This document shows positions 14,243-24,561 of a DNA stretch of 36,874 nt, piece by piece. The notes under the pieces are model-generated. The model did no database searches, had not been told where the DNA came from, and was given only the letters and a program-made list of their open reading frames with translations. The number at the start of each line of letters is the position of its first letter. Positions within the stretch are counted from its first letter, which is position 1. Position numbers and translations under genes: made by a program. Source of the stretch: Spirochaetaceae bacterium (lineage in GTDB: Bacteria > Spirochaetota > Spirochaetia > DSM-27196 > PWMO01); contig REDW01000142.1 in assembly GCA_007693325.1 (NCBI GenBank), forward strand, positions 1-36,874, in the 5' to 3' direction.

Positions 14243-14965
14243 TCACGGCTTTGACTGACCGTAGTACGCCCCGCTGCCGTGCTTACGCAGGTAGTGCTTG
14301 TCAACGAGCTCCTGCGGCGCTTCGGCGGCCAGCGCGTTGATCGAGCGCGTGTGATAGTCCATCCGCGCAACTTCTTCGAGCACAATCGCGTTGTCGACCG
14401 CCTTCTCAACTGAGGTTCCCCAGGCAAAAGGACCGTGGTGCGCTACCAGCACACCTGGAATTGATTGCGGGTCGATAGCGTGGCGCTGAAACCGTTCCAC
14501 AATCACCAGCCCGGTGTTGCGCTCGTAGGCTTGCTCTATCTCGTGGCGGCTGAGCCTTCGAGTAACCGGAATGGCGCCGTGGAAATGATCGGCGTGCGTT
14601 GTGCCGAAGCACGGGATCGGCTGCTCGGCCTGCGCAAAGCAGACCGCGAAGTGCGAGTGGGTGTGCACAATACCGCCGATATCGGGGAACGCGCGGTAGA
14701 GCTCCAGATGGGTATCGGTATCCGAAGAGGGGCGCAGATCGCCGTTGACCACCGAGCCGTCACCGAGCGCCACGCGCACCATGGTGTCGGGGCCCAGATC
14801 GGCGTAGTCTACGCCGCTGGGCTTGATCAACATAGTCTCGGAGCGGCGGTCAACGGCGCTGGCGTTGCCCCAGGTCAGCAGTACCAGCCCCGATTCCACA
14901 ATGCGCAGATTGGCGCGGTAGACCGCCTCGCGCAGGCGGGCGATGGTGCCGTTGCCGCTGCTCAT
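14243..14965 (-). CDS. araD: L-ribulose-5-phosphate 4-epimerase
   Basis: Class II aldolase/epimerase of 240 residues that converts L-ribulose-5-phosphate to D-xylulose-5-phosphate, linking L-arabinose breakdown to the pentose phosphate pathway. Motifs are LTWGNASAVDR (30-40), IKPSGV (47-52), the zinc histidines of HTHSH (His101, His103) and the third ligand His177 in AHHGPFAWG. GTTHADHFHGAIPVTR and the C-terminal KHYLRKHGSGAYYGQ match AraD rather than fuculose aldolases. The start overlaps the araB stop by 4 bp (ATGA), so the pair is translationally coupled, with araB first. Confidence 0.95.
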   Translation of the reverse strand: MSSGNGTIARLREAVYRANLRIVESGLVLLTWGNASAVDRRSETMLIKPSGVDYADLGPDTMVRVALGDGSVVNGDLRPSSDTDTHLELYRAFPDIGGIVHTHSHFAVCFAQAEQPIPCFGTTHADHFHGAIPVTRRLSRHEIEQAYERNTGLVIVERFQRHAIDPQSIPGVLVAHHGPFAWGTSVEKAVDNAIVLEEVARMDYHTRSINALAAEAPQELVDKHYLRKHGSGAYYGQSKP

Positions 14966-16653
14966 TGTCCGCGCGCCTTGTCACGTATGTCGATCAACTC
15001 TTTCATAACACCGGACAGCGATGCCTGTGATCCTTTGACGCCGAAGGCGTCGTGCATACTGCGGTAGAGGCCGTAGAGCCTGTTGTAGACGCGTGCGTTC
15101 TCGTTGATCGGCGTGAACTGCTTGTCGAGCGTGCCGGTCATGGCGTCGATTGCCGAGTCAAAACTGTCGTGACCACCGGCCTCAACTCCCGCGACTACAG
15201 CACCGGCCATGGCCGCGCCAACCGCGGGGGTTTGCTTGCTGCGTGCGATCTTCAGCGGACGGTTCATCACATCGGCGTAGATCTGCATCACCATTGGATT
15301 CTTCACCGAGATACCGCCGCAGTTGACGATCTCGTTGACTTTCTGGTCATACTCTTCGAAGCGCTCCATGATTACGCGCGCGCCAAACGCGGTTGATTCC
15401 ACCAGTGCGCGGTAGATCTCTTCTGGGCGGCTGTGCAGTGTCAGCCCCAGGATCGCGCCGGTCAGGCGCACGTCCACCAGCACAGTGCGGTTGCCGTTAT
15501 GCCAGTCCAGTCCGAGTAATCCGCTTTGACCGGGTGCCAGCTTTTCAGCGGCGGCGGTCAGCGCTTGGTGAGACCCTTTCTCGGTACCACCGGGCTGCAC
15601 GTAGTTGACAAACCAGTTGAAGATGTCACCGACGGCGCTCTGACCGGCTTCCAGGCCAAAGTGCCGCGGCAGGATTGAGCCTGGAACAATGCCGCATAAG
15701 CCGGGGATATCGGCGAGCTGTTGTGATTCAGGAACCACCATCATGTCGCAGGTGGAGGTTCCCAGTATCTTCACCAGCACACCCGGGCGAATACCCGAGC
15801 CAACACCGCCGAGGTGCGCGTCAAAGGCTCCAACCGCCACCGGAATCCCGGCCGGCAGGCCGGTCTGTTGGGCCCATTCTGCAGAGAGCAGACCGGCGCT
15901 CTGGTCAACGGTGTAGGCTACGTCGGGCAGCGACGCACGCAGCCGCGCCAGGTCCGGATCGAGGCCGGCGAGAAAATCGGCGTCAGGGTAGCCGCCCCAG
16001 TCGGTGTGAAACATCGCCTTATGGCCGGCAGCACAGATCCCGCGCTTGATCTGCGCCGGGTTGCTGATGCCGCACAGCCGGGCCGGAATCCAGTCAGCGA
16101 TTTCTACCCAGGTATGCGCGGCGTCAAAGACCGCTTGCGCACTGCGTTTGCACTTGAGCAGCTTGGACCAGTACCACTCGGAGGAGTAGATACCACCGCA
16201 CTTGGCCAGGAAATGCGGCCGGGACTTCTCGGCGCTGGCGGTAATCTCCTCGGCTTCTGCGGCTGAAGTGTGATCCTTCCATAGCCACGCCATTGCCGCC
16301 GGATTGTCACTCAGCTCAGCGCTGAATGCCAGCGGAGTTCCATCCCTGGCCAGAGGCATAGGAGTGCTGCCGGTTGTATCGACTCCGATCCCGATCACCT
16401 GCCGCGGATCAAATCCGGCAACCGCGCCGGCGTGCGACAATGCCCCTTTGATGACCGCGCGCGCCCCGTCGAGGTAGTCCTGCGGGTGCTGGCGCGCCAG
16501 ATTGGGATCGCGCGCATCGATGATGATGCCCGCCTCACCGTGGGCGTAGTCCCATACGCTCTCGGCGATCTCTTCACCGGTGGCCGTGTTGACGATAACG
16601 GCGCGAACCGAGTTAGTGCCGTAGTCCAGGCCAATGCAGTAGTTGTCGCTCAT
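14962..16653 (-). CDS. araB: Ribulokinase
   Basis: FGGY-family sugar kinase of 563 residues that phosphorylates L-ribulose with ATP. Visible are the N-terminal ATP-binding block GLDYGTNSVRAVIVNTATGEE (8-28), the GIGVDTTGSTPMPLARDGTPLA block (about 86-107), and the C-terminal FGGY region with NEIVNCGGISVKNPMVMQIYADVMNRPLKI. Length and the DTTGSTP motif suit AraB rather than xylulokinase or fuculokinase. AAAGGAG lies just before the ATG. It is transcribed away from the URO-D/transporter operon across a 185-bp control region and is followed by araD with a 4-bp overlap. No araA is present in the window. Confidence 0.95.
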   Translation of the reverse strand: MSDNYCIGLDYGTNSVRAVIVNTATGEEIAESVWDYAHGEAGIIIDARDPNLARQHPQDYLDGARAVIKGALSHAGAVAGFDPRQVIGIGVDTTGSTPMPLARDGTPLAFSAELSDNPAAMAWLWKDHTSAAEAEEITASAEKSRPHFLAKCGGIYSSEWYWSKLLKCKRSAQAVFDAAHTWVEIADWIPARLCGISNPAQIKRGICAAGHKAMFHTDWGGYPDADFLAGLDPDLARLRASLPDVAYTVDQSAGLLSAEWAQQTGLPAGIPVAVGAFDAHLGGVGSGIRPGVLVKILGTSTCDMMVVPESQQLADIPGLCGIVPGSILPRHFGLEAGQSAVGDIFNWFVNYVQPGGTEKGSHQALTAAAEKLAPGQSGLLGLDWHNGNRTVLVDVRLTGAILGLTLHSRPEEIYRALVESTAFGARVIMERFEEYDQKVNEIVNCGGISVKNPMVMQIYADVMNRPLKIARSKQTPAVGAAMAGAVVAGVEAGGHDSFDSAIDAMTGTLDKQFTPINENARVYNRLYGLYRSMHDAFGVKGSQASLSGVMKELIDIRDKARGQ

Positions 16654-16675
16654 CGCTGTCTCCTTTCAGACCCAT

Positions 16676-16705
16676 ACGATACGGCATGCACGCGGGATTT
16701 GTAAA
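16676..16705 (-). promoter_or_regulatory. Candidate araBD promoter
   Basis: On the minus strand TTTACA (16700-16705) and TATCGT (16676-16681) are 18 bases apart, 22 bp before the araB ATG. The -10 is weak (4/6), which would fit a promoter that needs an activator. Confidence 0.45.
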
Positions 16706-16715
16706 TACTCGAGTT

Positions 16716-16744
16716 TGTTGCAGCTTGATCCAACCGCTGTTGCA
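16716..16744. promoter_or_regulatory. Direct repeat in the divergent control region
   Basis: TGTTGCA occurs at 16716-16722 and again at 16738-16744, 22 bp start to start, or about two helical turns. The pair lies just upstream of the araBD -35 and between the two divergent promoters. Equally spaced direct repeats are the usual form of AraC-type activator sites. Seven bases can recur by chance, so this is tentative. Confidence 0.3.
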
Positions 16745-16761
16745 TTGCGCGGATAAACTGT

Positions 16762-16791
16762 TTGACAGAAAAAAGAGGGTGCCCCTATAAT
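16762..16791 (+). promoter_or_regulatory. Consensus sigma-70 promoter of the URO-D/transporter operon
   Basis: TTGACA (16762-16767) and TATAAT (16786-16791) both match consensus fully, with an 18-base spacer, 47 bp before the first ATG. The 8-bp palindrome CGTTAACG (16799-16806) covers the expected start of transcription. A strong promoter with a palindrome at +1 suits control by a repressor such as the LacI protein at the operon's end. Confidence 0.85.
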
Positions 16792-16798
16792 GTGTGTA

Positions 16799-16806
16799 CG
16801 TTAACG
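16799..16806. promoter_or_regulatory. Candidate operator palindrome at the transcription start
   Basis: CGTTAACG is an exact 8-bp palindrome 7 bp downstream of TATAAT, where a bound repressor would block initiation. LacI-family operators are usually longer imperfect palindromes of 14-20 bp, and the flanks here match only partly. Confidence 0.3.
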
Positions 16807-16838
16807 CTAGTTGGTGCACGCCGTGAGGGATATTCACT

Positions 16839-17921
16839 ATGAAGAATCGTGATCGGGTGCTTCTCGCGCTGAACGGGGAGCGTCCGGACCGGTGCCCGAT
16901 GCAGGTCAGTTTCACACCGGAGTTTGCACAGCGGCTGCGCCAGGATATGGCGCTTTGCAGCGGTGACGCAGAACACAATCCGCACGGCGGTGGTAATCCC
17001 TACGACCTCGAGCGCGCCCTCGATGAAGACCTGCTGTTGACCTCGGTAGGCTGGGCCAACTCCTATTACGGTGGCGGCCAGAGCTACACCGACGAATGGG
17101 GCATCGGCTTTCGCCGCGCCGAGTATACAACCAAGTTTGGAACCGGCAGCTATACCGAGATCACCTCGCACCCGCTGGCCGACGACGCAGCGCTCTCCGA
17201 CTACGTTGCTCCCGATCCCCATCGCAGTGAGCTGTACCAGGAACCGGCGCGGGTTGTGCGGGAGTACAAGGATCAGTACTGGATAACCGGGGTGACGGTC
17301 TGTACCATTTTCGAGACCGCCTGGGCTCTGCGGGGGCTCGACCGCTTGCTGATGGACCTGTCTTTGAATCCCGATGTAGCAGAAGCAATTCTGGATATCC
17401 CGTTCCATTTTCACCTGAGTGCGGCAAAACGGCTGGCTGAACTCGGCGTGGATATGATATGGACCGGCGATGACATCGGCGCCCAGTCTTCCATGATCAT
17501 GTCGCCCGAGATGTGGCGCAGCTTTCTCAAGCCCAGAATGGCCCGGTTTGTCTCGGAGGTGAAGGCAATCAACCCGCAGCTCAAGGTTGCGTACCATTCC
17601 GATGGCGCCATCTGGCCGGTTGTCCCCGATCTGATCGAGATCGGTATCGATGTGCTGAACCCGCTTCAGCCGGCAAGCATGGATCCGGCCGAGGTGAAGC
17701 GGCTCTACGGCGATAAGCTTTGCTTCTGGGGTTCGATAGACGAGCAGTATACGCTTCCGTTTGGCAGTCCTCAGGAGGTCAGCAATGAGGTGCGCAAACG
17801 GATGGAAACAGTGGGGAAGGATGGAGGGCTGATTCTGGGGCCAACGCACCACGTTCAGCTCGATACTCCCATGGAGAACTTCTGGGCCATGGTGGATACC
17901 ATCCGCGAGGGCTACCAATGA
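16839..17921 (+). CDS. Uroporphyrinogen-decarboxylase-superfamily protein, first of two
   Basis: The 360-residue cytoplasmic protein has the URO-D/MtaA TIM-barrel pattern: N-terminal RDRVLLALNGERPDRCP (4-20), a central MIWTGDDIGAQSSMIMSPEMW block (about 206-226), then AYHSDGAIWPVVPDLIEIGIDVLNPLQP (251-278). It lacks the RQAGR block of true haem-pathway HemE. Corrinoid methyltransferases of the superfamily have a zinc-binding HxCG, but here the site reads HSDG (His253, Asp255), with a His pair near the C-terminus (337-338). The reaction is unknown. Leading a sugar-transporter operon, it is more likely to act on a sugar-derived compound than in haem synthesis. GAGGGA serves as ribosome site. 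Confidence 0.85.
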   Translation: MKNRDRVLLALNGERPDRCPMQVSFTPEFAQRLRQDMALCSGDAEHNPHGGGNPYDLERALDEDLLLTSVGWANSYYGGGQSYTDEWGIGFRRAEYTTKFGTGSYTEITSHPLADDAALSDYVAPDPHRSELYQEPARVVREYKDQYWITGVTVCTIFETAWALRGLDRLLMDLSLNPDVAEAILDIPFHFHLSAAKRLAELGVDMIWTGDDIGAQSSMIMSPEMWRSFLKPRMARFVSEVKAINPQLKVAYHSDGAIWPVVPDLIEIGIDVLNPLQPASMDPAEVKRLYGDKLCFWGSIDEQYTLPFGSPQEVSNEVRKRMETVGKDGGLILGPTHHVQLDTPMENFWAMVDTIREGYQ

Positions 17922-18090: not shown

Positions 18091-19107
18091 ATGAAGAGGT
18101 TAGTAGCAGTTCTTGGTCTGTGTGTCGTACTGCTGTTTGTGGTAGCGGCACTTGGTCTGGCCGAAGGTCAGCAGGAGAGGATGGAGGCCGGCGAGAAGCA
18201 CTTCGAGGGGATCAACATCGTATTCTTCCCCGGTGGTCCTGAGGGCGGCCCGTTTGCATCGATTGTCTACAACGGTGCTCGCGCGGCGGAGTACGATCTG
18301 GGCGTCAACGTGGAGTACGTCTGGTCAGACTGGCTGCCGGACAGAATGATTGCGCAGTTCCGTGATGCGGTTGCGCGCCGACCGGACGGGATCGCGGTGA
18401 TGGGACATCCCGGGGTAGCTGCCCTTGGACCGCTGGTGGATGACGCCAGAGCTCGCGGAATAATCGTAACCAGCCAGAATACTCAGCTGCCCGAGATCGA
18501 AGAAAAGTACAAAGCGGACGGTTTTGGCTACGTTGGTCAGGATCTCTACGCATCAGGCAGAATGCTTGCCGAGGGCGCTGCGCAGCGCGCTGGTGTCGGC
18601 AGCGGCGACCGGGCGATGGTATGGGGACTGCTCGGGCAGGAAACCCGCGGTTTGCGCACCAGGGGTGCGATTGAGGCTCTCGAGGACATGGGATTGACCG
18701 TAGACTACATCGAGATCTCCGATGCGGTGAATTCCGACCCGGCACAGGGGACTCCGGTAGTCACCAGCTACATTGCATCCAACCCCGATGTCAAGCTGAT
18801 CATCACCGACCACGGAGCGCTGACCGCAACCGTCGGTACCTACCTCAGAGCGGCACGCCGCAATCCGGGGGATATCTACGTCGGTGGTTTCGATTTGAGC
18901 GCGGCCACAGTTGATGCAATCAACAGCGGCTTTCTGGGCGTTGTGCTGGACCAGCAGCCGTGGCTGCAGGGTTACCTGCCGATACTGCAGATCGCTCTGA
19001 CCGCAAAGTACGGTTTCTCGGGCCTGCACATCGATACCGGCGCGGCGTTGATCGACGAATCCAACATTGACTTTGTGGCACCGCTGGCCGAGCGGGGAAT
19101 CCGGTAG
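18091..19107 (+). CDS. Ribose-type ABC transporter sugar-binding protein
   Basis: Periplasmic binding protein of the ribose/galactose (RbsB-like) class, 338 residues. The signal peptide MKRLVAVLGLCVVLLFVVAALGLAEG ends near residue 26. The mature part has INIVFFPGGPEGGPFASIVYNGARAA, then DRMIAQFRDAVARRPDGIAVMGHPG, SDPAQGTPVVTSYIASNPDVKLIITDHGALT and IYVGGFDLSAATVDAINSG, the usual order of the two lobes. AAAAGGAGG gives an excellent ribosome site. It is the third-partner gene of the ATPase and permease downstream. Ligand unknown; the araBD neighbours suggest a pentose or pentose derivative. Confidence 0.92.
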   Translation: MKRLVAVLGLCVVLLFVVAALGLAEGQQERMEAGEKHFEGINIVFFPGGPEGGPFASIVYNGARAAEYDLGVNVEYVWSDWLPDRMIAQFRDAVARRPDGIAVMGHPGVAALGPLVDDARARGIIVTSQNTQLPEIEEKYKADGFGYVGQDLYASGRMLAEGAAQRAGVGSGDRAMVWGLLGQETRGLRTRGAIEALEDMGLTVDYIEISDAVNSDPAQGTPVVTSYIASNPDVKLIITDHGALTATVGTYLRAARRNPGDIYVGGFDLSAATVDAINSGFLGVVLDQQPWLQGYLPILQIALTAKYGFSGLHIDTGAALIDESNIDFVAPLAERGIR

Positions 19108-19147
19108 TCCTCGGTATATATTGACAGTCGCTTTTGTATCCGGCGCT

Positions 19148-19162
19148 CCGCGCGTTGCGCGG
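19148..19162 (+). promoter_or_regulatory. GC-rich hairpin between binding-protein and ATPase genes
   Basis: CCGCGC and GCGCGG pair around a GTT loop, 40 bp after the binding-protein stop and 33 bp before the ATPase start. There is no T-run. As with the hairpin at 1202-1227, it probably protects the binding-protein mRNA from 3' decay. Confidence 0.45.
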
Positions 19163-19195
19163 GGCCGCCGTGATTTCTCCGAGGAGGGAACACTG

Positions 19196-19993
19196 ATGTC
19201 AGATAGTGCAGCGGTTACAGACAAGCAGACCACCGAATATGACAAGCTGCTCGAGATGCGCGATGTACACAAGTCGTTCGGCCACGTGAACGTGCTCCAG
19301 GGCATCAATTTTCACGTCAATAAATGCGAGATTGTGGCCCTGGTTGGAGACAACGGGGCAGGCAAGTCTACGTTGATCAAGACTATAACCGGAGTTCACA
19401 GGCCCAACAAGGGCGAAATCTACTTCAAGGGCAAGAGAATCACTATTCACTCGGTTGCGCAGTCGCGCGCTCTGGGCATCGAAACGGTCTACCAGGAACG
19501 CGCGCTTGCGGATCAGCAGAGTATGTGGCGCAATATGTTTGCCGGCCGCGAGATTACTAACAAGCTGGGTATAATCAACGTCAAGAAAGAGAAGCTTGAG
19601 ACCGAGCGACTGCTGCGCGACAGCATGGGCTTTACGTCCAAGGCGATTACGGTTGACTCCCAGGTGATGTTCCTCTCCGGGGGCGAGAAACAGGGTGTTG
19701 CAATCGGCAGGGCTCTCTATTTCGACGCTGAGCTCATTATTCTGGATGAACCAACCATGGGGCTGTCTCTGTCCGAAACAAAAAAGGTCCTGGATTTTAC
19801 CCGAAGCATCAAGGATCACGGCAAATCTGCCATCTTCATCAGTCACAATTTCTACCATATCTACCCGGCAGCCGACCGGTTTGTGATTCTGGACCGCGGC
19901 AAGATTGCAGGCGATGTCAGGAAATCCGAGATTACCCAGGACGATCTGGTGCAGAAGATGGAAAACCTGGCCAGGACCGGGGTGTTCGAGTAA
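19196..19993 (+). CDS. Sugar ABC transporter ATPase, single-domain
   Basis: ATP-hydrolysing subunit of the ribose-type importer, 265 residues. Walker A is GDNGAGKST (51-59), Q-loop VYQE (98-101), signature LSGGEKQ (160-166), Walker B LIILDEP (180-186) and switch His ISHN (215-218). RbsA-type ATPases usually have two fused cassettes of about 500 residues; this one has only one, like FrcA. It should therefore work as a homodimer. ATG 19196 is chosen because GAGGAGG lies 8 bases upstream and homology begins after it; the open frame continues upstream into the binding-protein gene. Confidence 0.92.
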   Translation: MSDSAAVTDKQTTEYDKLLEMRDVHKSFGHVNVLQGINFHVNKCEIVALVGDNGAGKSTLIKTITGVHRPNKGEIYFKGKRITIHSVAQSRALGIETVYQERALADQQSMWRNMFAGREITNKLGIINVKKEKLETERLLRDSMGFTSKAITVDSQVMFLSGGEKQGVAIGRALYFDAELIILDEPTMGLSLSETKKVLDFTRSIKDHGKSAIFISHNFYHIYPAADRFVILDRGKIAGDVRKSEITQDDLVQKMENLARTGVFE

Positions 19994-20013: not shown

Positions 20014-20976
20014 ATGTTGAAAAAGCCAATGCGCCTGGAACACAAACTCGATCTCAGCATACTGATTGTCTTCTTTTCGGTGTTCATTCTGTTCTTCATC
20101 GCGAATCCCGGGGTGTTCTCCCGGTTCGACATCTACTACTCGTTTATGTCAACCATTCCGTTCATCGCAATCCTGGCGCTGTCGGTTACGCTGGTTGTAG
20201 TGCTCGGGATGATGGACCTGTCGTTTCCGTCGGTGCTGGCGTTTTCCGCCTGGGTCTTCGGGACCGTATTCACCAACACCGGCAGCATGCTGCTGGCGGT
20301 TATCTGCTGCATTGCCGTGGGTACCGCCTGCGGATTCGTCAATTCAATCCTGGTGGTGCGTATCGGCGTTCCTTCGCTGGTGGCAACCATCGGATCGATG
20401 TTCTTCTGGCGCGGAGCGGTCAACATGGTTGCCCGGGGGCGTGGAATTTCGCTGGTGGGCGCGATGGACACGTTTCTGTTCCGGGCATTTGTTGGACGTA
20501 TCGGGGGTGTCATCCCGGCGCAGTTCTTGTGGATGATTGCCGCGGCGCTGTTCTTCGGGGTGCTGCTGAAACGGCACCGCTTCGGTTCGCACCTGCTGTT
20601 TGTGGGTGACAACGAGCAGAGCGCCGCAATGATGGGCATCAACGTCAAGAGGGTCAAGACCATCGCTTTCATGCAGGTGGGCGCGTGCGCGGCCTTTGTC
20701 GGTATCCTCTCCACGCTGGAAGTCACCTATTTCTGGCCGAGTCAGGGACAGGGTTACCTGATGTCAGCGCTTGCGGCGGTCTTTGTCGGGGGGACTTCGG
20801 TGTTTGGTGGAATGGGAACGATCCTCGGTACCTTCCTGGGCGCCCTGCTCATCGGCTCACTGGAGGCCGGGATTATCTCGTCGGGTTTGAGCGGCTTCTG
20901 GATCCAGTTCATCTACGGCCTGCTGATTATGGTTTCGGTATCGACGTATGCAACTATGATGAAGAAGCGGGGCTGA
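20014..20976 (+). CDS. Ribose-type sugar ABC transporter permease
   Basis: Inner-membrane permease of the RbsC class (BPD_transp_2), 320 residues with eight to ten hydrophobic segments from about residue 15 onward. Conserved blocks are ILALSVTLVVVLGMMDLSFPSVLAF, GFVNSILVVRIGVPSLVATIGSMFFWRG, HLLFVGDNEQSAAMMGINVKRVK and ALAAVFVGGTSVFGGMGTILGTFLGALLIG, in family order. GAGGAAGGGG precedes the ATG. It is 20 bp after the ATPase, and only one base separates its stop from the next start, so it is clearly operonic. Confidence 0.93.
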   Translation: MLKKPMRLEHKLDLSILIVFFSVFILFFIANPGVFSRFDIYYSFMSTIPFIAILALSVTLVVVLGMMDLSFPSVLAFSAWVFGTVFTNTGSMLLAVICCIAVGTACGFVNSILVVRIGVPSLVATIGSMFFWRGAVNMVARGRGISLVGAMDTFLFRAFVGRIGGVIPAQFLWMIAAALFFGVLLKRHRFGSHLLFVGDNEQSAAMMGINVKRVKTIAFMQVGACAAFVGILSTLEVTYFWPSQGQGYLMSALAAVFVGGTSVFGGMGTILGTFLGALLIGSLEAGIISSGLSGFWIQFIYGLLIMVSVSTYATMMKKRG

Positions 20977-20977
20977 C

Positions 20978-22051
20978 GTGGTCCTGCAGAACAAGCCGGA
21001 TTTTGACGACGCCATGGCCAGGGTGGAGGCGTGGTTCGATGGCGCCATCGTTGATCGCGTTCCGGTGCGCTTCACACGCCATAACGCCTTTGCCGAGCAG
21101 GTGGATGACGCGGACCCTGAGCGCTGGGGTAGCCTCAGAGAGCGCTGGTTTGATGTAGAGTACCAGATCGAACGTTATCTACGCTCGATCGAAGCCAAGG
21201 TGTTCCTGGCCGAGACTTTCCCGGTCTACTGGCCCAATCTTGGTCCCGAGGTCTACGCGGCCTTCCACGGCTGCCCGCTGGAGTACGGCGAGACAACCTC
21301 GTGGTCGACGCACCCGGTCCGCGAGTGGCCGGATGCCGAGAAGCTGCAATTTGACCGCGGCAATCAGTACTTCCGCAAAGTCGAGGAGCTCACCGCTGCT
21401 GCCCTGGCGGTGTGTAACAACCGGTTCATGGTGGGCTACACCGATCTGCATCCCGGCGCGGACTGCGCCATGGCGTGGCGTGGCGCTGACCGGCTCTGCA
21501 TGGATCTGTACGATACACCGCAGCAGGCCAAAGCGCTGGCTGAGCGCGGCGCAGAGCATTTTTTCGAGATCTACGATCATTTCGACGGCATTCTGAAGCA
21601 GCACGGGCAGCTCTCGGTGACCTGGATGGAGATCCCGTCGCGAGGCAAATTGCATATTCCGAGCTGTGATCTGGCCGCGATGATCTCCGAACAGCAGTTC
21701 AAAGATCTTGCACTTCCGATCATCGAGCGTGAAGTCAGGCACATGACGCACAACATTTTCCACATTGACGGCAAGGGTGTGGCGCGTCATCTCGAACAGC
21801 TTCTGCGCATCCCCGAGATCCAGGCCTACCAGTGGGTGCAGGGTGTTGGTGAAGACCAACCGATCATGCAGTGGGTGCCGCTGATCGAGCGCATTCAGAC
21901 CGCCGGGAAGTCGGTGGTTGTAGACCTGCAGCCCGATGAGCTCGATCCGTTCATGCAGGCAGTGCGGCCCGAGGGGATATTTCTGTGCCTGCCCTCGGCC
22001 AGCGAGGAGCAGGAACGGACGTTGCTGAAGCGGATAGAGAAATGGACCTAA
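20978..22051 (+). CDS. URO-D-like protein, second of two, divergent
   Basis: The 357-residue soluble protein has the layout of the URO-D/methionine-synthase barrel superfamily. The N-terminal MARVEAWFDGAIVDRVPVRF (14-33) parallels the opening block of URO-D proteins. A central region follows with YTDLHPGADCAMAWRGADRLCMDLYDTPQQAKAL, then HNIFHIDGKGVARHLEQLLRIPEIQAYQWV. The HIDG (His262, Asp264) aligns with HSDG of the first URO-D gene. Similarity between the two is low, so they are not a recent duplication. The GTG start follows the permease stop by one base, without a strong ribosome site. Function unknown; it probably acts on the same compound class as its partner. Confidence 0.75.
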   Translation: MVLQNKPDFDDAMARVEAWFDGAIVDRVPVRFTRHNAFAEQVDDADPERWGSLRERWFDVEYQIERYLRSIEAKVFLAETFPVYWPNLGPEVYAAFHGCPLEYGETTSWSTHPVREWPDAEKLQFDRGNQYFRKVEELTAAALAVCNNRFMVGYTDLHPGADCAMAWRGADRLCMDLYDTPQQAKALAERGAEHFFEIYDHFDGILKQHGQLSVTWMEIPSRGKLHIPSCDLAAMISEQQFKDLALPIIEREVRHMTHNIFHIDGKGVARHLEQLLRIPEIQAYQWVQGVGEDQPIMQWVPLIERIQTAGKSVVVDLQPDELDPFMQAVRPEGIFLCLPSASEEQERTLLKRIEKWT

Positions 22052-22104: not shown

Positions 22105-23490
22105 ATGTTAACGGCCAGAGTCGGGTTTATCGTGTACGGGGTACACAAAGATGGTTTGAAGGATCCAATGGGCACGCCCTTCATTGATGATGGGCTGATC
22201 GAAAGCAACAAACAGGCCTTGAAGGACGCAGGGCTGCAGCTGGTTGAGTATCCGATTGTGGTTGCCTCCAAGAAGGAGGCGCGCGAATGCATGTACCACT
22301 TCAAGGTAAAGGAAGAAGTGGATGCGATCATCCTCTACTCCGGTACCTGGGTCTGGGCGGCACATCTTATTGCGGCGGTTCGCGATTATGCCTCCACCGG
22401 CAATGGTATCCTGCTGTGGAACGACCCTGGCGGGCAGAGCTGGGGAGGTTCGGTCGGTGGATTGGTACTGCACGCCGCGATGCGCGAGATAGGCTTGAGT
22501 CACCGTTTTGTCTACGCTGCCGCCACTGAAAGCGGCACAATAACCAGGATTTCTGCATGGTGCCGCGCCAGCGCCGTGAAGCGACAGCTAAACCAATCCA
22601 CCTATGGCGTACTCGGCGGACGCGGCATGGGGCAGACGTGCGGTGTGGCAGATCCTTCGCAATGGATGAAGCTGTTTGGCGTAGACCTGGATTCGCGTGA
22701 CACAACGCGGCTGTTGCATCTTGCCAACAGTGTTGCCACATCCGAGATAGATCAGGCGCGAGAACGAATAACGCCCCTATTCTCTGAGCCGGTCCCCACA
22801 ACCGACGCTGCCGATCGTTCGATTCGTCTGTATCTGGCGCTGAAGAAGATAATGGCAGAAGAGGAGTGGGCGGGCTACGTGATACAGTCGTTTCCCGGAT
22901 TGGGCGATGACTATTCGGCAACCAGTTTTCCCCAGAGCATGATGCTGGAGGATCGTGTGGCCAGCATGACGCTGAGCGATTTCAACTCGCTTCTGACCGT
23001 TATTCTGTTGAATGCTCTGAGTGCTGAACCGGTCTACTACGGAGACCTGCAGCACATCAACAAGGCAACCGGGGAAATGCGGATAGTCTGTGACGGGGCG
23101 TGCCCGCCGTCGCTTGCGGGAACGGTCAAGCCGGCCGCTTTTTCCAGGCACGGAATTGAGACCGAAGGGGCCGCCGGAGGCCTGGCCGTGCAGCTGGTGT
23201 GCAAACCGGGCAACGGTGTCATGGCGCGGGTTGGACGCCGCGATGGGGAGTTTGAGCTGATTGTCTGCCGCTGTTCCATGTTTGAGCCGGGCGCAGATGT
23301 TGTGCAGGAGCTGTTGGAAGAATGTGGAATTCCCTTCTGGCCGCACGCGTTCATCAAGGTTGAAGCGGACCTGGATACCTTGATAGAGTCGTGGAGCAAC
23401 GAGTACGGCTGCATTGCGTATGGCGCCCATCTCTACGAAGACTTGGTGGCATTCGGAGAACAGGCCGGTATCCGGGTTATTGCGTTATAG
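22105..23490 (+). CDS. L-fucose-isomerase-like protein lacking the catalytic Glu
   Basis: The 461-residue protein resembles the L-fucose/L-arabinose isomerase superfamily: N-terminal Rossmann-like lobe (VGFIVYGVHKDGLKDP), a GTWVWAAHLIAAV block near 82, LLWNDPGGQSWGGSVGGLVLHA, and a C-terminal region with DFNSLLTVILLNALSAEPVYYGD. E. coli FucI has Glu337-Asn-Asp339 and Asp361 in the active site. With identical 24-residue spacing this protein has Leu290-Ser-Asp292 and Asp314. The catalytic, metal-binding Glu is thus replaced by Leu, and an aldose-ketose isomerase activity is doubtful. TAGGAGAG precedes the ATG. Operon position ties it to the URO-D-like proteins and transporter. The FucI residues are from memory. 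Confidence 0.8.
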   Translation: MLTARVGFIVYGVHKDGLKDPMGTPFIDDGLIESNKQALKDAGLQLVEYPIVVASKKEARECMYHFKVKEEVDAIILYSGTWVWAAHLIAAVRDYASTGNGILLWNDPGGQSWGGSVGGLVLHAAMREIGLSHRFVYAAATESGTITRISAWCRASAVKRQLNQSTYGVLGGRGMGQTCGVADPSQWMKLFGVDLDSRDTTRLLHLANSVATSEIDQARERITPLFSEPVPTTDAADRSIRLYLALKKIMAEEEWAGYVIQSFPGLGDDYSATSFPQSMMLEDRVASMTLSDFNSLLTVILLNALSAEPVYYGDLQHINKATGEMRIVCDGACPPSLAGTVKPAAFSRHGIETEGAAGGLAVQLVCKPGNGVMARVGRRDGEFELIVCRCSMFEPGADVVQELLEECGIPFWPHAFIKVEADLDTLIESWSNEYGCIAYGAHLYEDLVAFGEQAGIRVIAL

Positions 23491-23502: not shown

Positions 23503-24561
23503 ATGGCAACAATCAAAGATGTAGCACGCATGGCCGGGGTCTCGATTGGTACCGTTGATCGCGTTCTGAACAATCGCGGGCGGGTGGCGCGCGAGACCTT
23601 TCGGCGTGTGCAGCAGGCTATAGAGGAACTGAATTACTCACCCAATCTGACCGCGCGTCATCTCTCGATGGCCAAGGCAATCAACTTTGGTGTCATGATG
23701 CCTCGGGTCGATCAGGACAGCGGCTACTGGGCGATGCCGCAGAGCGGCATCGCCCGCGCGGCACGCGACCTCGCCTTCCACAAGGTTTCCGCGCAGCATT
23801 TCTACTTTGACCGCCATTGCCCGGATTCGTTCGAGCGCTGCTGCAGAAAGGTGAGGAGCGCCGAACTCGACGGCCTGCTGATTGCGCCGGTTCTGTCGCG
23901 TCCGGCGCAGCGATTCCTGGACACAATGACTGACGAGAACCACACAGCGGTGGTGCTGTTTGACTCGCGCGTTGAGGCCGATGGGCGCTATACGTTCGTA
24001 GGGCAGGATCCTTTTGACAGCGGGGTTGTTGCCGGCAAGATGCTGCGGATTCTGATGCGTACAACGGGCACGGTGGTGGTAATCACCGTGGGTACCGACG
24101 ACTACCATCTGGAGCGCAGGGCCGAGGGGATTCAGCACTTCTTCGTGGATACGCCCGCCGTGAGAATTGAGCAGATTTCGCTGGTGGAAGGGCCCGGGAT
24201 CGATCCTAACGCTGAGCTGACGCGCCGTCTGCCACGCGATCTTGCCGGTGTTGAGGGAATCTTTGTCACCAACGCGCTGAGCCACATCATGGTGGAGTAC
24301 ATCCAGAAGCAGGGTGAGGCGCGCCACATCCCGTTGATTGCCTACGACCTGATCCCGCAAAACATCGCATACCTGCGAGAAGGCAAGATCGACTTTGTGA
24401 TCAGTCAGGAACCCGAGACGCAGGGCTATGAAGCGCTCTACGAGCTCTACCGGCAGGTGGTGCTCGGCTCGGCGCCGGCTGAGACTATCGGTATGCCGAT
24501 TGAACTGGTTACCAGGGAGAACCTGGATTCGTACCTGAACGCCCGCCCGGACAGTTTGTAG
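23503..24561 (+). CDS. LacI-family transcriptional regulator of the sugar locus
   Basis: The 352-residue regulator has an N-terminal helix-turn-helix at residues 3-24 (TIKDVARMAGVSIGTVDRVL) and the hinge NYSPNLTARHLSMAKAI. A periplasmic-binding-protein-like effector domain follows, with FDSRVEADGRYTFVGQDPFDSGVVAGKML and VEGIFVTNALSHIMVEYI. The GTVDRVLNNRGRV variant and the sensor resemble LacI regulators of ribose-type transport operons. It starts 12 bp after the isomerase-like gene, so it is probably the last gene of the operon and controls the divergent promoters at 16676-16791. It converges on topA across a 29-bp gap with a palindrome but no T-run. Confidence 0.92.
   Translation: MATIKDVARMAGVSIGTVDRVLNNRGRVARETFRRVQQAIEELNYSPNLTARHLSMAKAINFGVMMPRVDQDSGYWAMPQSGIARAARDLAFHKVSAQHFYFDRHCPDSFERCCRKVRSAELDGLLIAPVLSRPAQRFLDTMTDENHTAVVLFDSRVEADGRYTFVGQDPFDSGVVAGKMLRILMRTTGTVVVITVGTDDYHLERRAEGIQHFFVDTPAVRIEQISLVEGPGIDPNAELTRRLPRDLAGVEGIFVTNALSHIMVEYIQKQGEARHIPLIAYDLIPQNIAYLREGKIDFVISQEPETQGYEALYELYRQVVLGSAPAETIGMPIELVTRENLDSYLNARPDSL

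Follow-up and report, generated by a model that had tools for sequence, protein, structure and literature searches.

Does a protein built on the fold of fucose isomerase (FucI) and L-arabinose isomerase (AraA) still act as a sugar enzyme when residues that hold the catalytic metal have been exchanged for others? The question is raised by a gene on contig REDW01000142.1 of a Spirochaetaceae bacterium (assembly GCA_007693325.1), of which we analyzed a stretch of 36,874 nucleotides, hereafter the window. The gene is a full-length open reading frame (ORF) of 461 aa with an ATG start, no internal stop and an AGGAGA ribosome-binding site upstream. The gene and the codons discussed below are:

22105–23490, plus strand: FucI/AraA-fold protein of the family here called Leu-Asp-Tyr (ORF, sub-cut-off Pfam match, AlphaFold2, Foldseek)
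22972–22974, plus strand: codon CTG of Leu290, in the column of FucI Glu337 and AraA Glu306 (alignments)
23044–23046, plus strand: codon GAC of Asp314, the sole retained ligand of three, FucI Asp361 (Asp in 84 of 84 family rows)
23092–23094, plus strand: codon of Asp330, a family-specific invariant Asp adjoining the AraA His350 column (Asp in 84 of 84 rows; outside the family mostly Cys or Glu)
23404–23406, plus strand: codon TAC of Tyr434, in the column of the His ligand, FucI His528 and AraA His450 (alignments)

The Pfam model Fucose_iso_C scores 26.1 bits on the window protein, below its gathering cut-off of 29.3, and neither AraA_N nor PRK02929 matches it in Pfam and NCBIfam; among 56 family members, 32 match Fucose_iso_C and 14 match AraA_central (E ≤ 0.001). 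The top NCBIfam match is the sulfoquinovose isomerase SftI/SqvD (NF048012), yet its score of 60.4 bits is far below the cut-off of 700, and four other family members score 58–97 bits with the same model. A phmmer search of the PDB with the single window sequence returned no match, so a profile was needed to reach solved structures: built from the 56 family members, it retrieved L-arabinose isomerases (best E = 3.8e-5) over residues 128–458. The AlphaFold2 model of the window protein, computed with the 56-member family alignment as input, has a pLDDT of 88.9 and a pTM of 0.90. In Foldseek it matches AraA best (7chl; E = 3.7e-26, TM 0.81; other AraA structures are 4f2d and 4r1p), followed by E. 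coli FucI (1fui; E = 3.4e-19, TM to query 0.78; Raoultella FucI is represented by 6k1f and 6k1g), in both cases over the whole length, and no PDB structure outside AraA and FucI reaches a comparable score. Given this model confidence and the whole-length matches, the FucI/AraA fold is secure as a prediction, in agreement with the fucose-isomerase-like protein recognized in a preliminary description of this DNA, although the window protein is shorter than FucI (461 versus 591 aa).

In FucI, Mn2+ is bound by Glu337, Asp361 and His528, Asp339 being absent from the three ligands given in the structural paper, and Glu337 and Asp361 transfer the hydrogens in an ene-diol mechanism (PMC6894278). The preliminary description had placed Leu290 (CTG at 22972) at the position of Glu337, with Asp292 (GAT at 22978) and Asp314 at the spacing of Asp339 and Asp361, and had concluded that the metal-binding Glu is lost. 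A MAFFT alignment with intermediate sequences set 84 family rows against 22 relatives from outside the family, among them FucI and AraA of E. coli and the further FucI-like proteins encoded in the genome that carries the window. The Glu337 column holds Leu in all 84 family rows, whereas the outside relatives have Glu (20), Gln (1) or Asp (1). The Asp361 column is Asp throughout the family and Asp or Glu outside it. The column of FucI His528 and AraA His450 is Tyr in 84/84 family rows versus His in 22/22 outside relatives, so that in place of the FucI triad Glu337-Asp361-His528 every family row carries Leu290, Asp314 and Tyr434. The AraA ligand set (Glu306, Glu333, His350, His450) is likewise disrupted: columns 306, 350 and 450 hold Leu, Gly or Cys, and Tyr, the His350 column being Gly in 83 of the 84 rows and Cys329 in the window copy, with His (14) and Asn (5) outside. 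Besides the two Asp residues, FucI Gln300 is kept as Gln261.

Both replacements are placed firmly. An hhalign comparison of the family profile with a 21-sequence outside profile (P = 100, E = 2.8e-72 to 6e-72) pairs Leu290 and Tyr434 exactly as MAFFT does, which rules out misalignment of either residue. The HMM match to solved AraA chains is a third method that puts Leu290 in the Glu306 column; it confirms Leu290 only, and Tyr434 is placed by MAFFT and hhalign together. Run against AraA alone, hhalign leaves the C-terminus uncertain, and the two-sequence profile available for FucI alone is too thin. Nor is Leu290 a sequencing error or a local mutation, given its presence in all 84 rows. The residue placements of the preliminary description thus hold, its two Asp assignments included, and the loss that it noted goes further than it claimed, with the His ligand gone as well. 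The site is not freely exchangeable in the superfamily, because all 22 outside relatives keep the His and 20 keep the Glu, down to very low identity.

The replacement marks a large family. A genome scan gave 173 encoding loci; the best 80 of these, taken for analysis, show 55–66% identity. Going by the record titles, the loci belong to Bacteroidota, Verrucomicrobiota/Lentisphaerae/Kiritimatiellae, Planctomycetota, Chloroflexota, Armatimonadota, Acidobacteria, Calditrichota, Spirochaetes, Clostridia, Atribacteria and others, so the conservation of Leu290, which the preliminary description had proposed to check in close homologues, extends over many phyla. One partial copy, L113 (G074:C7:59-580), lies at a contig edge, covers profile positions 285–458 and has an in-frame TAG within the match. 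When three phyla were searched further with the family profile, 14 of 14 strong matches (≥800 bits; a few duplicate earlier loci) had Leu, Asp and Tyr, and none of the 38 weak matches (≤224 bits) had Leu or Tyr in those columns, their first-ligand column being Glu or Gln in all but one. In a maximum-likelihood tree of 47 sequences, a branch supported at 100/100 separates the Leu/Tyr proteins from the rest, and their neighbors in the tree are proteins with Glu (or Gln), Asp and His. From this single clade and the clean split of the profile matches, the Leu/Tyr change appears to have arisen once and then become fixed. The nearest relatives (C135 from the same genome, L114, L117, L170 and L171) adjoin the family in the tree and share its GGR...D..QW..FG motif region, but they retain the Glu/Asp/His set (with Gln for Glu in L114) and score 84–224 bits versus at least 800 for full-length family members. 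L114 (G045:C96:23979-25211), in this adjoining group, is a FucI-like protein with Gln at the metal Glu and with Asp and His kept.

About 100 columns are invariant in the family. Many of these hold family-specific polar residues, including His14-Lys15-Asp16, Gln261-Ser262, His317, Glu324, Asp330, His349, Glu354, Glu433 and Tyr434, and many invariant columns lie in loops of low pLDDT (11–30, 111–120, 171–180 and 351–360), which we infer to be ordered by ligand or by a neighboring subunit. A tblastn search of plasmids and phages gave no match, and a mobile-element or plasmid/phage origin was rejected. In the papers searched for pseudoenzyme forms of fucose isomerase, for FucI-like families or for sugar isomerases independent of metal, no description of such a family was found.

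The neighborhoods of the relatives suggest what the family does. An FGGY kinase is encoded in 36 of 73 neighborhoods; of the 30 loci flanked on both sides by 4 kb or more, 23 have it. Class II fructose-bisphosphate-type aldolases occur in 23/73 and DhnA-type aldolases in 11/73 neighborhoods, Amidohydro_2 (amidohydrolase) proteins in 31/73, and mutarotase-like genes in 19/73, the latter encoding either DUF4432 or a protein of 287 aa that has no Pfam match and was likened to aldose epimerases by eye. GFO/IDH/MocA oxidoreductases, like the amidohydrolase, are found in many neighborhoods, and 24 of the 73 lack kinase and aldolase genes, several of these being truncated by contig ends. The class II aldolases retain their metal ligands (one Asp, one Glu and three His) in 24 of 24 copies, and the catalytic motifs of the kinase and amidohydrolase copies are retained as well. 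The flanks of the family loci contain no gene for a FucI/AraA-type isomerase, and no xylose-isomerase-type Pfam family is among those listed for 78 other neighbors, a list with few single-member families. Upstream of the family gene in L022, L035 and L037 there is a recurrent trio encoding a glucosamine-6-phosphate-isomerase-like protein, a PfkB kinase and a protein of ~103 aa. As judged from gene content, the layout in the relatives is that of a predicted sugar pathway, from sugar to ketose, ketose phosphate and aldol cleavage, in which the family enzyme would most likely supply the ketose for the kinase. FucI, too, occurs with kinase and aldolase genes, and in the published sulfo-EMP2 pathway the FucI relative SqvD is joined by a kinase and a class II aldolase (PMC9594981), an order that matches the logic of many family operons. 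The Mn2+ ligands of SqvD are, however, reported as conserved (PMC9594981), whereas the Leu-Asp-Tyr family has lost two of them.

The usual partners, FGGY kinase and class II aldolase, are absent beside the window copy, which is encoded in an apparent transporter operon diverging from araB and araD:

14243–14965, minus strand: AraD-like L-ribulose-5-phosphate 4-epimerase, the genome's only strong AraD
14962–16653, minus strand: ribulokinase AraB, divergent from the operon, the genome's only one above the TIGR01234 cut-off
16762–16791, plus strand: sigma-70 promoter match upstream of the operon, 12/12, spacer 18 (motif match)
16839–17921, plus strand: URO-D-like protein (uroporphyrinogen decarboxylase/methyltransferase fold), first gene of the operon (Pfam URO-D, 5.4e-29)
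18091–19107, plus strand: substrate-binding protein of a sugar-type ABC transporter (Peripla_BP_4, 5.6e-34)
19067–19993, plus strand: ABC transporter ATP-binding protein, ORF as listed (ABC_tran, 2.1e-28)
20014–20976, plus strand: ABC transporter permease of the ribose/arabinose type (BPD_transp_2, 2.4e-37)
20978–22051, plus strand: 357-aa protein without a Pfam or other family match
23503–24561, plus strand: LacI-family regulator, 12 bp downstream of the family gene (Pfam LacI, 9.7e-19; Peripla_BP_4, 1.7e-26)

The true start of the ATP-binding protein is probably internal, downstream of the stop codon of the binding-protein gene. The URO-D-like protein and the 357-aa protein bracket the sugar ABC transporter, and URO-D proteins are also encoded near a few of the relatives' genes. 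No inverted repeat with arms of at least 7 was found in 16640–16860, and an operator palindrome common to the operon and araB was accordingly rejected. The window protein would not be the sole arabinose isomerase of its genome, as a canonical AraA is encoded on contig C147, without araB and araD; a link of the window protein with ribulose chemistry is possible, because araB and araD proper occur only in the window. The 3.5-Mb genome encodes at least seven further FucI/AraA-type proteins (contigs C25, C54, C81, C118, C135, C145 and C147) and about 15 FGGY kinases, which marks the organism as rich in sugar-isomerase pathways.

Taken together, we consider the window protein to be a working cytosolic sugar-catabolic enzyme with the FucI/AraA fold and a rebuilt active site, at a probability of roughly 0.55, and the sugar chemistry is probably done in a way not yet described. 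An open-chain sugar would be bound in the pocket between subunits and undergo an isomerase-type step that would feed the FGGY kinase and the class II aldolase, be it the conversion of an aldose into a ketose or a related rearrangement of a keto-sugar. In the FucI mechanism, the lost Glu serves the C2–C1 hydrogen transfer (PMC6894278), so isomerization would need a substitute group. Asp314 and family-specific residues, among them His14-Lys15-Asp16, Asp292, His317, Asp330, His349, Glu354, Glu433 and Tyr434, may replace the Mn2+ held by Glu, Asp and His, and the enzyme would work without a metal or bind one at another place. The window copy probably works with the sugar ABC transporter encoded upstream and with the LacI regulator, and possibly also with AraB/AraD.

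Two other readings also leave the protein an enzyme, and each is possible but clearly less probable than the rebuilt active site. The metal site could merely be rearranged, with a nearby acid or His such as Glu433 or Asp330 filling in, so that the protein would be an ordinary Mn2+ aldose–ketose isomerase with a new substrate. The whole-length fold and the invariance of Asp292 and Asp314 are compatible with such a site, as are the new invariant acids Asp330 and Glu433, which adjoin the columns of AraA His350 and His450; however, Leu290 and Tyr434 are placed unambiguously by two methods, and the outside relatives keep His in 22/22 and Glu in 20/22 cases. The main rival is a different reaction on the same sugar, in which the fold would serve an epimerase, mutarotase, dehydratase or hydrolase acting on the pathway sugar or sugar acid rather than a 1,2-isomerase. 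The concurrent loss of the proton-transfer Glu and the metal His would fit this, and with amidohydrolases and GFO/IDH/MocA oxidoreductases in many neighborhoods, the pathway may start by another route; yet kinase and aldolase would be expected to require a ketose, and in the operons no FucI/AraA-type isomerase was found.

A catalytically dead, sugar-binding pseudoenzyme with a regulatory role, toward either the operon or a partner enzyme, is possible but improbable. It would account for Leu and Tyr at two of three metal ligands, but the polar, pocket-type residues are very strongly conserved and the window operon encodes its own LacI regulator. Of the three outcomes that the preliminary description drew from the metal-ligand loss (pseudoenzyme, regulator or different reaction), the first two are disfavored by the ~100 invariant columns, the co-located kinase, aldolase and other catalytic genes with their motifs kept, and the lack of a FucI/AraA-type isomerase partner alongside; a different reaction, or isomerization by a different site, is the better half of that interpretation. 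Decay and a chance substitution confined to the window gene are very improbable. Of the members examined, the window copy does diverge most, differing at 16 of 153 near-invariant positions (median 1), and the five other sampled genomes of the genus give weak matches at most. But Leu290 is common to all family rows, which refutes a chance substitution there, and the ORF is intact, with a ribosome-binding site and an operon behind a 12/12 promoter match. The changes cluster at residues 106–116 (22420–22452; Thr106Asn, Ser110Gly, Gly112Ser, Arg115Gly and Pro116Ser), and Gly329Cys (23089–23091) is a further departure, together hinting at altered specificity or decay. The substrate or state of the window copy may therefore differ from the family norm, as its divergence and its place in an ABC-transporter operon divergent from araBD suggest for the substrate.

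Extended to the whole family, the rebuilt active site becomes a more tentative proposal, to which we give somewhat less than even odds: a phylum-spanning family with the FucI/AraA fold would carry out sugar isomerization, or another first step of a sugar pathway, while lacking the Glu/Asp/His metal site kept by nearly all other sampled superfamily members. Genome pipelines may name such genes fucose or arabinose isomerases by fold, a label that is doubtful here. The Mn2+ site has been treated as the heart of the mechanism in fucose and arabinose isomerases and is kept even in the distant SqvD. A large family that lacks two of the three ligands and is nevertheless encoded alongside kinase and aldolase in sugar operons would show that this fold supports other chemistry, and would also mark a sugar pathway that has probably gone unrecognized.
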